From positions 1 through 45,545 of IMG/VR virus record IMGVR_UViG_3300021961_000167: a stretch of 45,545 bases of DNA. The stretch is one strand, 5' to 3'. How positions within the stretch are numbered: the stretch's first letter is position 1; each line of letters starts with the position of its first letter. Origin of the DNA: a virus. The notes beneath the pieces are model-generated. The model was not told where the DNA came from, did no database searches, and was given only the letters and a program-made list of their open reading frames with translations. Position numbers and translations under genes: made by a program. Positions 1,989 to 11,218 of the stretch are shown here, in pieces.

Positions 1989-2017
1989 TTGACATAAAAA
2001 TCAAATTATGCTATATT
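1989..2017 (+). promoter_or_regulatory. Consensus sigma70 promoter
   Basis: TTGACA at 1989-1994, a 17-nt spacer, then TATATT at 2012-2017. The start is expected near 2024. It is a host-type promoter just downstream of a late-transcribed baseplate gene pair, so the unit it drives can be made early and independently of gp55. Confidence 0.8.
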
Positions 2018-2023
2018 ACTATT

Positions 2024-2203
2024 AGGGCTGAAGTAATAACCCAATATAATTTAGACCGTATATATGCCAATTGGCATATTTTTAATAACTATGTAGATTA
2101 TACGGAGTTAAGAGTCTAAATAAATTAATACTACGATAAAAAGTAGTATGTACCACAGCACTAACGTGGTAATCGATTAAGCAGTAATGCTTGATCTCTT
2201 TTT
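2024..2203 (+). ncRNA. Structured leader or small RNA of about 180 nt
   Basis: No coding frame is evident between the sigma70 promoter and the next gene, but the predicted transcript is almost fully paired. The stems seen are: ATTTAGAC 2049-2056 with GTCTAAAT 2114-2121 (8 bp), enclosing CGTATA 2057-2062 with TATACG 2099-2104, which encloses the perfect 18-bp palindrome 2062-2079; ATACTAC 2128-2134 with GTAGTAT 2143-2149; TACCAC 2151-2156 with GTGGTA 2166-2171; and GATTAAGCA 2175-2183 with TGCTTGATC 2188-2196 around a GUAA (GNRA) tetraloop, followed by TCTTTTT. It could be a stand-alone RNA ending at the last hairpin, or a cis-acting leader and attenuator for the 77-residue membrane protein. 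No known RNA family was recognised. Confidence 0.6.
2175..2203 (+). terminator. Rho-independent terminator or attenuator
   Basis: A 9-bp stem (one G-U pair) with a GTAA loop, followed by TCTTTTT at 2197-2203. It lies immediately before the Shine-Dalgarno AGGAGGT of the next gene, so read-through here would decide expression of that gene. Confidence 0.6.
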
Positions 2204-2210
2204 AGGAGGT
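2204..2210 (+). promoter_or_regulatory. Strong Shine-Dalgarno sequence
   Basis: AGGAGGT, 7 nt before the ATG at 2218. It directly abuts the T-tract of the preceding hairpin, so hairpin formation and ribosome access could compete. Confidence 0.75.
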
Positions 2211-2217
2211 AATACTT

Positions 2218-2451
2218 ATGAAAGTATTAGAAAACGTAAAGAAGTGGGCTAACGAGATTGCTCATTTAGCAGTAACCTTAATGGCAATGTTCATCGCTTT
2301 AGAAATTTTATTTGGCGGTTCAGCACTACCATTTCTTCCAGCAACAGACGTAATTGGAACTGTTACTGGCTTGGTTAAATCACTAGGGTCTGAAGGACTT
2401 GCTGGTTTAATCGCAGTATGGGTTTTATATACAATCTGGGAAAAGAAATAA
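2218..2451 (+). CDS. Small two-helix membrane protein, possible holin-like protein
   Basis: 77-residue protein. A short basic N-terminus (MKVLENVKKW) is followed by two hydrophobic segments, about residues 15-33 (IAHLAVTLMAMFIALEILF) and about 60-74 (LAGLIAVWVLYTIW), with a connecting loop and a charged C-terminus EKK. It has a very good ribosome binding site, a private sigma70 promoter, a structured leader and its own terminator, so it is probably made in quantity and separately from the late genes. The size and two-helix layout would suit a small holin or another inner-membrane protein, but no catalytic or family-defining motif is visible and no endolysin gene lies next to it. The real-gene call is strong; the function is open. 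Confidence 0.85.
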   Translation: MKVLENVKKWANEIAHLAVTLMAMFIALEILFGGSALPFLPATDVIGTVTGLVKSLGSEGLAGLIAVWVLYTIWEKK

Positions 2452-2475
2452 CTCTTTACCAAGAATAAACCAACT

Positions 2476-2510
2476 AAAAAGGATCATGTAAGAAAGATGG
2501 TCCTTTTTTT
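2476..2510 (+). terminator. Rho-independent terminator after the membrane protein gene
   Basis: AAAGGATCAT pairs with ATGGTCCTTT (one G-U pair) around a short loop and ends in seven Ts at 2504-2510. Confidence 0.75.
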
Positions 2511-3236: not shown

Positions 3237-3642
3237 GATGTCTAAAGACATCTGTTTCATCGCTTACGCTCGAAACTTATTTCTTAATTAACTGCTTTCC
3301 GTATTATCCAGATATAAGTCATAATTCACCTATCCGCAGGCAAATTATGACAAACGCATTATCCGAGTACTGCGCCATACTAACTAACAGAGATTGTATT
3401 ACTACACGGAGGCGGTTAGCCGGTACCCCCTACTCTTGATTCATCCAGCGGATACTTGTCAATCCCTAGTTAGCGAAATTAACAAGCACGTGAGTTGCTT
3501 TTTCTCAGAGCTCACATCATTTAGTTTTTACACTTAATTTTGTTACGTGCCGTCCCGTGTGCAGTTTGATCTACACGTTCCTTGTAGTTAGTAAACTACA
3601 ATCTCCTCATAGGACACGGAGAACACTCCGCATCAGTGGCTG
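3237..3642. other. Gene-free, strongly structured region (candidate non-coding RNA)
   Basis: About 400 bp without a credible coding frame on either strand, more GC-rich by eye than its surroundings. Hairpins seen: AGATGTC/GACATCT with TAAA loop (3236-3253); GTCATAATT 3318-3326 with AATTATGAC 3343-3351, with an inner CCT/AGG; GTGAG 3490-3494 with CTCAC 3511-3515; ACGTG 3545-3549 with CACGT 3574-3578 (or CGTGT/ACACG); TTGTAGTT 3582-3589 with AACTACAA 3594-3601 around a four-base loop; CGGAG 3617-3621 with CTCCG 3626-3630 around AACA. It follows the GIY-YIG gene on the minus strand and the sulfotransferase gene on the plus strand, so the transcribed strand is unknown. A decayed intron, a stable phage RNA or a regulatory element are all possible. 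Confidence 0.5.
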
Positions 3643-4083
3643 TTAGTTTAAATCTTCTTTTAGTATGCCCTTTACGGAGCCTATGCCTAGTCTTATATTG
3701 ATTATGCCGTTATAGTTGTCATCACGGAGTAACACATGCTCTTTTATTTGATAGTAGCACTCCATGTAGTTTGTTATGCCTCTTGTTTTACATAAATGGA
3801 TTATTTCGCGAGTGAATTTATCTTTGCCTAATTGTTCGATATCATGTTGAAGCCGATCACTAGATCCCCAGTAGGTCTTCCAGTCCGTTTCAACAGTTTC
3901 TCGTCTTTTGTTTTTCTTGCCTTTGAGTGGTGGGCGTTTCTTTACTGTCCAGAAAAATTTCCTTCCAATATAGTCGTGCCCATTTATGGTATTAGTAATA
4001 CGATAGATAAAGCCGTAATTATCACCAATATCTTTTGTATCAAAAACTTGGTCTTGATATAACCAAGGGTTTTCGTATGACAA
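3643..4083 (-). CDS. GIY-YIG-like endonuclease domain protein
   Basis: 146 residues. GFIY at about 24-27 and YIG at 38-40, followed by Arg41, form the GIY-YIG nuclease signature in a basic protein with a Lys/Arg cluster at 48-62. Closely similar small proteins occur widely in marine T4-like phages and are annotated as putative endonucleases; whether they are homing enzymes is not established. The start codon is TTG at 4081-4083, supported by AAGGA about 9 nt upstream on the minus strand. It is the last gene of the minus operon, 18 nt after the radical SAM gene. The adjoining gene-free structured region makes an old intron association conceivable but unproven. Confidence 0.78.
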   Translation of the reverse strand: MSYENPWLYQDQVFDTKDIGDNYGFIYRITNTINGHDYIGRKFFWTVKKRPPLKGKKNKRRETVETDWKTYWGSSDRLQHDIEQLGKDKFTREIIHLCKTRGITNYMECYYQIKEHVLLRDDNYNGIINIRLGIGSVKGILKEDLN

Positions 4084-4101: not shown

Positions 4102-5115
4102 TTACCATTCAGTTGCGTAGTCTAAATTGACTACTGACATATTACATTTAGTCTTACATTCCACCCAGGGGAAAATTTCAAACCGTTCTTCCCAGAATTT
4201 ATCTTCAAGAACCTCTGTCAACGCCCGTTTATTAAGGTCAAAACTATTACTCAGTTCAGACCATTCATTATTATGATTGTACCTATTTGCTACCCAACAA
4301 CAAGGAAGTAAACGACCTTGACTGTTTAGGAACAAGCCTTTATTGCCAATACTACATAAAGGTTTGATGTCTCCATAGGTTTTAGATTTTTCGTATAATT
4401 CAACGTTGGTTTTGTAACCTACTGTGCTAGGCTGTCTGCCTGATAGGTTAAGGACTTCACGTGTAAATCTATACTTATCGCTGATATTAGGAGTACTAGG
4501 TTGTAGTGGATCGTTTTTAGGGTATATAGGATATACCTGATTAAATTTTGTACTACGAGTTATTTGAAATTCATCAAACCCTAGGTGCTCAGCCTGTGCT
4601 TTCATAGTATCTAGGTGTTCTTCGTTAAATTTAAACACTATACAATCCCAAGTCATGTATACATCGCTAACCTGTCTAAGTGTTTGTACACCTAATATAA
4701 TACTGTCCCAATTAGAGTTTACTCTATACTGTTCGTTACTTGCTTGGTCCCAGCCATCTAAACTAAAGTGTATGTGATCATTTTCATCTAATACACTACC
4801 AAGTTGAAGCCACCAGTCTGCTTTTTTGTAACTACCGTTAGTAACAATAACAAACTTAACTGGTTTAATTGATTTAAAATATTCAATAACATCAACAAGA
4901 TCGTGTGCATATATAGGATCTCCGTCATCACCACAGAATGTAATCTTTTCTACATTGTCACGTATAAAGTCAGGAGTAAAATTCTTTTTGAAAAAGTCAA
5001 GTCTAAGCTCAGTATTAACTAATGTTTCTGGAACTTCTTCTCTAGCACACCTAGGACACTTTAGTGTACATTTACTAGATATTTCTATATGCCAATGCCA
5101 GGTTGCTAGTTTCAT
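4102..5115 (-). CDS. Radical SAM protein (first of an adjacent pair)
   Basis: 337 residues. The cluster C16-TLK-C20-PR-C23 binds the 4Fe-4S cluster that cleaves S-adenosylmethionine. FCGDDGDP supplies the GGE-like SAM-binding segment, and HFSLDGWD a further core strand. A C-terminal region with C-SIGNKG, then LLPCCWV, then CKTKC looks like a SPASM/twitch-type auxiliary cluster domain, as in peptide- and protein-modifying enzymes. The ATG overlaps the stop of the upstream radical SAM gene (ATGA), so the two are probably translationally coupled. It sits in the recombination/early operon. The substrate is unknown. Candidates are a small peptide, a host protein or a virion protein; nothing in the sequence decides this. 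Confidence 0.88.
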   Translation of the reverse strand: MKLATWHWHIEISSKCTLKCPRCAREEVPETLVNTELRLDFFKKNFTPDFIRDNVEKITFCGDDGDPIYAHDLVDVIEYFKSIKPVKFVIVTNGSYKKADWWLQLGSVLDENDHIHFSLDGWDQASNEQYRVNSNWDSIILGVQTLRQVSDVYMTWDCIVFKFNEEHLDTMKAQAEHLGFDEFQITRSTKFNQVYPIYPKNDPLQPSTPNISDKYRFTREVLNLSGRQPSTVGYKTNVELYEKSKTYGDIKPLCSIGNKGLFLNSQGRLLPCCWVANRYNHNNEWSELSNSFDLNKRALTEVLEDKFWEERFEIFPWVECKTKCNMSVVNLDYATEW

Positions 5116-6008
5116 TTAAATTCAACCTCGTGTTGCCATTGTCCTGTAAAACTAGTAACTTCTTCAACAGATCTACAAGTTGTATAACACATATCGTTGG
5201 GTTGGTCAGTTTTCCAAGATTGTTTAATAGTTTCAAATTGATCAATAGAATTATCTGTAATACCCAAATAACAACAAGGATATATAACACCTTCTGCTGA
5301 CATGTATCTACTTTGTTCGTTTAGTGCTTGACAGGAAATATTACCAAACCTTACTGTTGGATTTTTCCAACCTTTTGGTGGATTTAAAAACTTAACAGGA
5401 TTAATTTCATGGCGTCTAGTAATTTTAGCTCTAAACCATTTAAATCCTAAATCACGTGCTAGTTGTTCACACGCATTAACTTGATGTTCGTTGTGTTCAA
5501 ACACTAACATATCCCAATGAGCTCGACCTCCAGCTTTGATAAATGTCTGAGCATTTTCAATAACTTTATTCCAATTTACATTTATCCTATAGATATGGTT
5601 AGTGTCCTCTAGTCCATCAATACTGAACACGCTGTAATCTTTTTCAGTATTTAATATGATACCTAATTCATGCCACCAATCCTGATCACGCAGTCCGCCG
5701 TTAGAATTCATTCCTAAACTAATACCTGGATTAACTGTTCTAAAGTAACGATAAATGTCTAATGTGTGTTTGCCAGCGGCTGGATCACCATAATCGCCAC
5801 ACATAAACATTTTGTCTAAGTTACTGATAATGTCATCACCTAACTGTTTACGTATTTGCTCTATAGTTAAATGATGTAGATTTTTTTTATCAAACGATGT
5901 ATCTGTTTCTCTAGAACATTGTGGACAAGCCGCATTACACGCATCTGTGGGTTCTAGGTGTAATATTTTAAACGGAGTCAACATCTGTGCCATATGTAGT
6001 AAAGCCAT
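5112..6008 (-). CDS. Radical SAM protein (second of an adjacent pair)
   Basis: 298 residues with C24-NAA-C28-PQ-C31, the radical SAM cluster motif. MCGDYGDP is the SAM-binding segment, FSIDGLED a core strand, and the C-terminal VIYPCCYLG plus later MCYTTC is a likely auxiliary cluster domain. It is clearly related to its downstream neighbour, with the same CGDxGDP and CC arrangement, so the pair arose by duplication or works as partners. The longest frame overlaps the 3' end of gp46 by 41 nt. Internal ATGs at residues 6 and 9 give smaller overlaps, and the strong homology-like region begins only at about residue 11, so the true start may be MLTPFK. No strong Shine-Dalgarno distinguishes them. 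Substrate unknown. Confidence 0.86.
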   Translation of the reverse strand: MALLHMAQMLTPFKILHLEPTDACNAACPQCSRETDTSFDKKNLHHLTIEQIRKQLGDDIISNLDKMFMCGDYGDPAAGKHTLDIYRYFRTVNPGISLGMNSNGGLRDQDWWHELGIILNTEKDYSVFSIDGLEDTNHIYRINVNWNKVIENAQTFIKAGGRAHWDMLVFEHNEHQVNACEQLARDLGFKWFRAKITRRHEINPVKFLNPPKGWKNPTVRFGNISCQALNEQSRYMSAEGVIYPCCYLGITDNSIDQFETIKQSWKTDQPNDMCYTTCRSVEEVTSFTGQWQHEVEFK

Positions 6009-10246: not shown

Positions 10247-11161
10247 CTAGCCTGCTGTTGTCGACTTTTTTGGCTTACTAGTTGTTACTTTAGCCGGACC
10301 ATCAGGATCACTGTCATCTACACCACTGTTTTGACGTGTCCAACTTGGATTTAATCCGTTCATTTCTAAGATATCGTCTCTGATGCTTTGGTTTTTCTTT
10401 TCAATGTTAAGCACACGGGTAAACGAATTGGTAATGGCCGCAGTGTAATAAGCAAACGGATTGTCTGATTTTGATTCATCAAACTGTAGACCAATTTGAC
10501 TTAGTTGCAGTAGCGCCTGTCCACGCATTTCTTCATTGTAAGTATAACCACGCCAGTTTGATCTAGTAGCATAACGCTCACATAGTTTAATAAACATGTT
10601 GGCTAACTTCATAGTCATTTCACCGTGATCTTTTGAAAACTCACCTTTTTCTAATGTGCCTTTCCAGTGACTTTTACCAACTAGATATGGCTTTCCGTTT
10701 TCGTCAACTCTGTAGTGCTGAAATGGAGGAAAGTTAACTTTAGCATGTACCTGATCATCAATACCGTAGTCTTCATCTTCTCTGGCTTCGTTAATGTCAT
10801 CAAACATTTCTTCTAACTTAGCACGTTTCTTTAACTGTGCTTTAGTAGGCTTTTTATCTACCATTGGAATATGCTCCCAAGTCATAACACGAAATACTAA
10901 ATCAGTATCTGCTATGTCCTTAGGCTCAATGATAATGCCTTGTTCTTTTTTTGTACGATCTATACGTGCTTGACGTGCTTCTTTAATACGTGTTTTATTA
11001 ATTTTTAAAATATCATCTACAATAATATCATAATCTGAATCTGTTTCTCGATTAATATATTTGCAGTATGTTTTCTTTGACTTGTGTATTTCTGCTAGAA
11101 TGTCGCGATTATTTAGATAGTTAACCTTACGACCGCCTCTCATGATTTTTTGTTCTGCCAC
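10247..11161 (-). CDS. 55: Late-transcription sigma factor gp55, long form
   Basis: 304 residues. The region of about 175-285 (motifs MFIKLCERYATRSNWRGYTY, EMRGQALLQL, SDNPFAYYTAAITNSF and EKKNQ) is typical of gp55, the sigma70-region-2-like protein that directs host polymerase to TATAAATA late promoters. T4 gp55 has 185 residues, so about 120-170 extra N-terminal residues, highly charged, are an extension. The C-terminal tail is Pro/Lys/Thr-rich. The start is GTG at 11159-11161 with GGAG about 8 nt upstream. A near-consensus sigma70 promoter (11191-11218) precedes it, so it is expected early. The window contains eight matching late sites, mostly before structural genes. Confidence 0.85.
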   Translation of the reverse strand: MAEQKIMRGGRKVNYLNNRDILAEIHKSKKTYCKYINRETDSDYDIIVDDILKINKTRIKEARQARIDRTKKEQGIIIEPKDIADTDLVFRVMTWEHIPMVDKKPTKAQLKKRAKLEEMFDDINEAREDEDYGIDDQVHAKVNFPPFQHYRVDENGKPYLVGKSHWKGTLEKGEFSKDHGEMTMKLANMFIKLCERYATRSNWRGYTYNEEMRGQALLQLSQIGLQFDESKSDNPFAYYTAAITNSFTRVLNIEKKNQSIRDDILEMNGLNPSWTRQNSGVDDSDPDGPAKVTTSKPKKSTTAG

Positions 11162-11190: not shown

Positions 11191-11218
11191 ATTATACATT
11201 CTTTCCGGCCCCTGTCAA
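11191..11218 (-). promoter_or_regulatory. Near-consensus sigma70 promoter for the gp55-gp47-gp46 operon
   Basis: On the minus strand, TTGACA (11213-11218), a 16-nt spacer and TATAAT (11191-11196). Both hexamers are perfect. The transcript would start near 11184, about 23 nt before the gp55 GTG, and could cover all genes down to 3643. Confidence 0.85.

Follow-up and report, generated by a model that had tools for sequence, protein, structure and literature searches.

What determines when, and for how long, a small phage gene is expressed if it is preceded by a strong promoter, a long folded leader, and a strong Shine-Dalgarno (SD) sequence? The question is raised by positions 1989-2510 of the window, which is the whole 45,545-nt IMG/VR virus record IMGVR_UViG_3300021961_000167. 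A sequence-only reading of this locus had proposed an early unit encoding one membrane protein under attenuated or riboswitch-like control, or a stand-alone phage RNA with a downstream gene. The answer favored here, with moderate confidence, is that the leader of this mainly late gene has two promoters and that every alternative mRNA starts with paired nucleotides, probably for the longevity of the message. The leader is a variant among known phage leaders rather than a novel riboswitch. The computed evidence comprises the conservation of the promoter and of a late box, the onset of a hairpin at the predicted late +1, stem covariation, leader hairpins that do not score as efficient terminators, and SD pairing that is alike in early and late transcripts; from it we infer the firing of both promoters in infection, the exact start sites, and the stabilization of the mRNA.

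Judged by its gene content, the source is an uncultured T4-type phage. The window encodes a T4-like baseplate hub protein, a gp46-like SbcC subunit, and a gp55-like late sigma factor. The SbcC protein is closest (~50% identity) to SbcC of relatives of Pseudomonas phage PA5oct, and positions 10247-11161 match phrog_12791, sigma factor for late transcription (E 4e-75), so that the phage carries the gp55-like factor expected where T4-type late promoters are used. Another sigma70-type promoter, TTGACAGGGGCC..TGTATAAT at 11191-11218 on the minus strand, lies upstream of the gp55-like gene, and G001 and G004 carry promoters that resemble it. Also on the minus strand of this T4-type phage are a SegE-like GIY-YIG endonuclease (3643-4083), which adjoins a non-coding stretch of about 400 nt (3240-3640), and a pair of neighboring radical SAM proteins (4102-6008), both of which match PHROG 21308.

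The outer promoter, at 1989-2017 on the plus strand, is TTGACA-17-TATATT with the extended -10 sequence TGC. It has 11 of the 12 consensus bases and a 17-nt spacer, as had been claimed, and its +1 is predicted at about 2024-2025. It is the sole exact match to TTGACA-16/18-TATWWT on the plus strand of the window, and a TTGA(C/T)(A/C)-17-TATAAT-like promoter recurs in the equivalent position in 11 long-leader lineages.

Within the leader lies a second promoter element that the sequence-only reading overlooked, a T4-type late box, CTAAATA, at 2116-2122 (+). In phage Aeh1, CTAAATA is a documented late box that begins at -12 (PMC1524935), and this spacing would place the late +1 in the window at 2128. 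The box conforms to the T4-type pattern, (N)(A/C)TAAATA upstream of late genes. Of 83 distinct leaders, 76 have CTAAATA or a close variant 40-125 nt ahead of the start codon. Searches of nine related phage records for (C/A)TAAATA followed by an SD and ATG gave 9 and 21 matches, compared with 0 and 0 for the reversed-pattern control. Furthermore, all seven ATAAATA sites on the plus strand of the window are at or near an ORF start, the majority 12-43 nt upstream of it. The earlier idea that the gene interrupts a late-transcribed block is thus not confirmed, as the gene has a late promoter of its own.

The leader RNA is well folded. Its predicted energy is -49.4 kcal/mol (z = -4.0), and none of 200 shuffled sequences folds as well. 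The minimum free energy (MFE) structure includes all four of the stems originally described, 2049-2056/2114-2121, 2128-2149, 2151-2171, and 2175-2196, and such structures recur in the relatives. The description of the RNA as nearly fully paired was too strong, since the 5' domain has only moderate structure: when the leader of the window is split at the late box, the 5' part has a z of about -2.1 and the 3' part a z of about -3.7. The 5' domain (2049-2121, +), which would be present only in the early transcript, is closed in the window by ATTTAGAC (2049-2056) and GTCTAAAT (2114-2121). In the 3' part, the hairpin at 2128-2149 (+) would form the 5' terminus of the late transcript, followed by a second hairpin at 2151-2171 (+) and a third at 2175-2196 (+), the latter with a GUAA (GNRA-type) loop.

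The position of the first of these hairpins is what ties the fold to the late promoter. When 39 leaders are aligned on the late box, hairpin onset falls exactly 12 nt past the first base of the box, that is, at the predicted +1. The mean 5'-side-partner probability in these leaders rises from 0.49 at offset 11 to 0.82-0.99 across offsets 12-16, compared with about 0.48 in shuffled sequences, with the reservation that many of the leaders are mutually related and leader counts overstate their independence. Stem arms were tested directly in view of the poor alignment of the 5' domain across lineages. Among 14 clusters, the hairpins have a mean energy of -7.2 kcal/mol with their own 3' arms and -3.6 kcal/mol with swapped arms, a difference reached in 0 of 20,000 permutations; the counterpart of this hairpin in the window is the stem at 2128-2149. 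Covariation, which had been named as the sign of a genuine structure, is therefore strong for this stem, and it is moderate for the stem that closes the 5' domain. A shared fold within the 5' domain (P2/P3) was considered and rejected, as these pairings vary among lineages.

The early transcript also appears to begin in a stem. Its 5' end, TTAGG at 2022-2026 (+), forms the 5' arm of P1, whose partner is TCTAA at 2115-2119; in the long leaders, CTAA within the late box is the partner of the early 5' end, and the neighboring pairs covary. Across 11 lineages, 88.6% of the P1 cells are paired (covariation score 0.361 vs 0.245; 5/500 shuffles), and a permutation test gives p 0.0015. Much of P1 is unable to covary, because CTAA, the partner of its core, is invariant. 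In the window itself P1 is weak, with a paired probability of 0.3-0.6. Pairing in sigma70 transcripts climbs +6 to +8 past the -10 element in the 11 long lineages (0.72-0.94 vs ~0.52), and it climbs at the same positions in 5 short lineages (0.80-0.97 vs ~0.45).

These leaders fall into three main classes. Long leaders, like that of the window, have the outer sigma70 promoter, the early-only 5' domain, CTAAATA, and hairpins. Short leaders have a sigma70 promoter immediately ahead of CTAAATA, and their own 5' and 3' ends pair together. Leaders of the third class have no TTGACA; they contain CTAAATA, TTAAATA, or ATAAATA, followed by one hairpin and the SD. Their structure indicates that the early promoter has been added only in particular lineages. 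Several third-class hairpins have differing GNRA caps (GAAA, GUGA, GCAA), which fits selection acting on the RNA. Long and short leaders are, from their sequences, swapped as modules. L032 and L033 are near-identical from the SD-proximal hairpin through the gene and terminator but have a short and a long leader, respectively, suggesting recombination at that hairpin.

Taken together, these features describe a single-gene, mainly late unit that would be transcribed from two promoters, the outer sigma70 promoter with a predicted +1 at about 2024 and the internal CTAAATA with a predicted +1 at about 2128. In the early transcript, P1 would join the 5' end to CTAA within the late box; in the late transcript, a hairpin would begin right at the predicted start. 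Both would then run through another one or two hairpins to an open, strong SD. The paired 5' ends would most likely hinder 5'-end-dependent decay (RppH/RNase E) and so yield a long-lived message. Protection of mRNA by a 5' stem is established in E. coli, where paired 5' ends hinder both RppH and RNase E (PMC3997798). With a stabilizing 5' stem-loop, the 5' end has few unpaired nucleotides or none, and this is the arrangement found at the predicted starts.

A late promoter nested in a structured leader also suggests a switch in translation. In T4, genes e, soc, 49, and the intron-encoded I-TevI have a late promoter nested within the structured leader of longer early transcripts (PMC3014915, PMC2988022), and for e, soc, and I-TevI the early structure hides the ribosome-binding site, while late transcripts, starting inside the leader, lack that structure. 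The nesting found here, with the late promoter in the 3' arm of the 5'-domain stem, and the T4 precedent both speak for such a switch, but the pairing computed for the SD does not. The SD, AGGAGGT, is present next to a hairpin as claimed, at 2204-2210 (+), and this arrangement recurs in relatives; its unpaired probability in the window is 0.70 in the early transcript and 0.71 in the late one, and most relatives are alike. The openness of the start-codon region is likewise about equal. Starting at the late +1 strips away the 5' domain alone, and in most lineages that domain does not pair with the SD. The T4 gene e/soc pattern, in which the SD or start codon is paired early and free late, is thus not reproduced, and an early/late translational switch is unlikely. 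Transcription might alternatively be stopped within the leader: the sigma70 transcript would mostly end at the hairpin at 2175-2196 and its U-run. The product would be a stable RNA of about 180 nt, and synthesis of a potentially toxic membrane protein would be held back early. A hairpin followed by a U-run does precede the SD in the window, in several marine relatives (L201, L015, L001, L006), and in the short forms L002 and L014, and the pairing of the two ends of the short form would suit a stable RNA. However, the hairpin by the SD only looks like a terminator. By a score calibrated solely on the gene's own downstream terminators, it reaches -20.7, and in 38 of 39 leaders the hairpins score negative, compared with positive scores for 36 of 40 downstream terminators; an intrinsic attenuator requires an efficient terminator between promoter and gene, and only 1 of the 39 leaders scores positive. 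The U-run is absent from L022, L023, and L017, and several relatives that have lost it retain a hairpin at this site; since the terminator-like hairpin is also 3' of the late promoter, late transcripts would stop there too. Attenuation, or a small early RNA, is accordingly improbable. The terminator downstream of the gene, at 2481-2510 (+), is as first described, scoring +5.1. Only in L013, upstream of 4001, does a hairpin lying between the late box and the SD reach the score of a genuine terminator (+10.7). In a scan of the whole of IMG/VR, convincing copies of the conserved core plus CTAAATA were found only upstream of this gene, and other matches were in unrelated contexts; with no efficient 3' end before the SD either, the stand-alone RNA finds no support.

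Two conserved elements in the leader raise the possibility of a riboswitch or a protein-binding RNA, in which the early-only 5' domain and an 18-nt element would sense a ligand or a phage protein. The 18-nt element, ATAACTATGTAGATTATA at 2085-2102 (+), is conserved in long leaders and lies 13 nt ahead of CTAAATA. The other element, TATATATGCC at 2059-2068 (+), is a position-conserved box (TAGTTATSC in most relatives) that lies 50 bp ahead of CTAAATA in the window and 48-50 bp ahead of it in long, short, and several third-class leaders. In favor of such a sensor are the fixed spacing of the two elements and a 5' domain with a negative z in all 19 long leaders (about -0.7 to -5.4). Nevertheless, the leader has no Rfam match above noise at the standard or relaxed threshold, in agreement with the earlier statement that no known RNA family was recognized; the structure around the conserved element is inconsistent across lineages; and there is neither a conserved aptamer with an expression platform nor any expression platform at all. 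In short leaders, moreover, the TAGTTATSC box abuts the -35 element, upstream of the promoter, and is untranscribed, which suggests a role for the box as DNA or as a relic inner promoter. As a general phage promoter element TAGTTATSC failed, with no more matches in eight records than the reversed-pattern control. Given also hairpins that do not score as terminators and an SD about equally open early and late, riboswitch-like or attenuated control is not supported, and sensing by the leader is very unlikely. Protection of the mRNA, the reading preferred here, gives no account of the 18-nt element and the upstream box at their fixed spacing in the long leader. It is conceivable, if doubtful, that these elements and the 5' domain form a new phage regulatory element, acting as an RNA or as an operator, that sets the timing of a lysis protein and that so far is confined to uncultured marine T4-type phages.

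The protein itself, encoded at 2218-2451 (+), has 77 residues and belongs to an unannotated family. At least 565 relatives are present among the candidate stretches of IMG/VR. By tblastn, with three family members as query, none was found in 50,697 records of cultured phages, and the matches in bacterial genomes, seven contigs, are all in metagenome-assembled genomes and are possibly phage contigs binned with them. The two membrane helices that had been proposed are seen in a low-confidence structure model (pLDDT 65), and the ORF recurs in relatives. Searches of Pfam and PHROG with 28 family members gave no match except one weak DUF match, comparison of the low-confidence model with viral structures found nothing, and a PDB profile search returned only an inovirus coat protein, at an insignificant E of 0.22. 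In L025, L040, and L041, which represent one lineage, the homologue is the first gene of a compact operon and is followed by genes for another small hydrophobic protein and a GH19 endolysin, in gene order a lysis-cassette arrangement; elsewhere the neighbors vary (capsid, dUTPase, thymidylate synthase). We infer from this a holin-like role, as a lead only. The work thus describes a widespread family of small membrane proteins that the searched records of cultured phages lack; one lineage hints at lysis. Beyond this family, comparative data from uncultured phages may allow late starts to be placed from sequence alone, with the onset of conserved pairing as the marker of the predicted +1, and this method could serve phages that resist culturing.

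Comparison with known systems places each part of the unit. The 77-residue protein resembles class II (two-TM) phage holins in its size, two predicted hydrophobic helices, and charged tail, and in the operon that some homologues share with a hydrophobic protein and the GH19 endolysin. Unlike those holins, it matches none of the holin families in sequence, most of its relatives are away from lysis genes, and it is predicted to be made partly from an early promoter. The predicted late promoter has the same box and +1 spacing as those of Aeh1 (PMC1524935), but this phage and its relatives carry CTAAATA alongside ATAAATA, and CTAAATA is here coupled to a hairpin at +1. The leader is like those of T4 e, soc, 49, and I-TevI in that a late promoter is nested within structure shared with longer early transcripts; it differs in that the SD is not hidden specifically in the early transcript and in that the early promoter is dedicated to one gene, rather than being read-through from upstream genes. 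Finally, as in the E. coli 5' stem-loops of ompA, papA, and engineered bla, the first nucleotides are predicted to be paired and the SD to be open downstream (PMC3997798). In contrast to those mRNAs, the paired ends here occur at two or more alternative predicted starts of one gene, and the rule proposed, which is testable, is that the alternative transcripts of one gene all begin base-paired.
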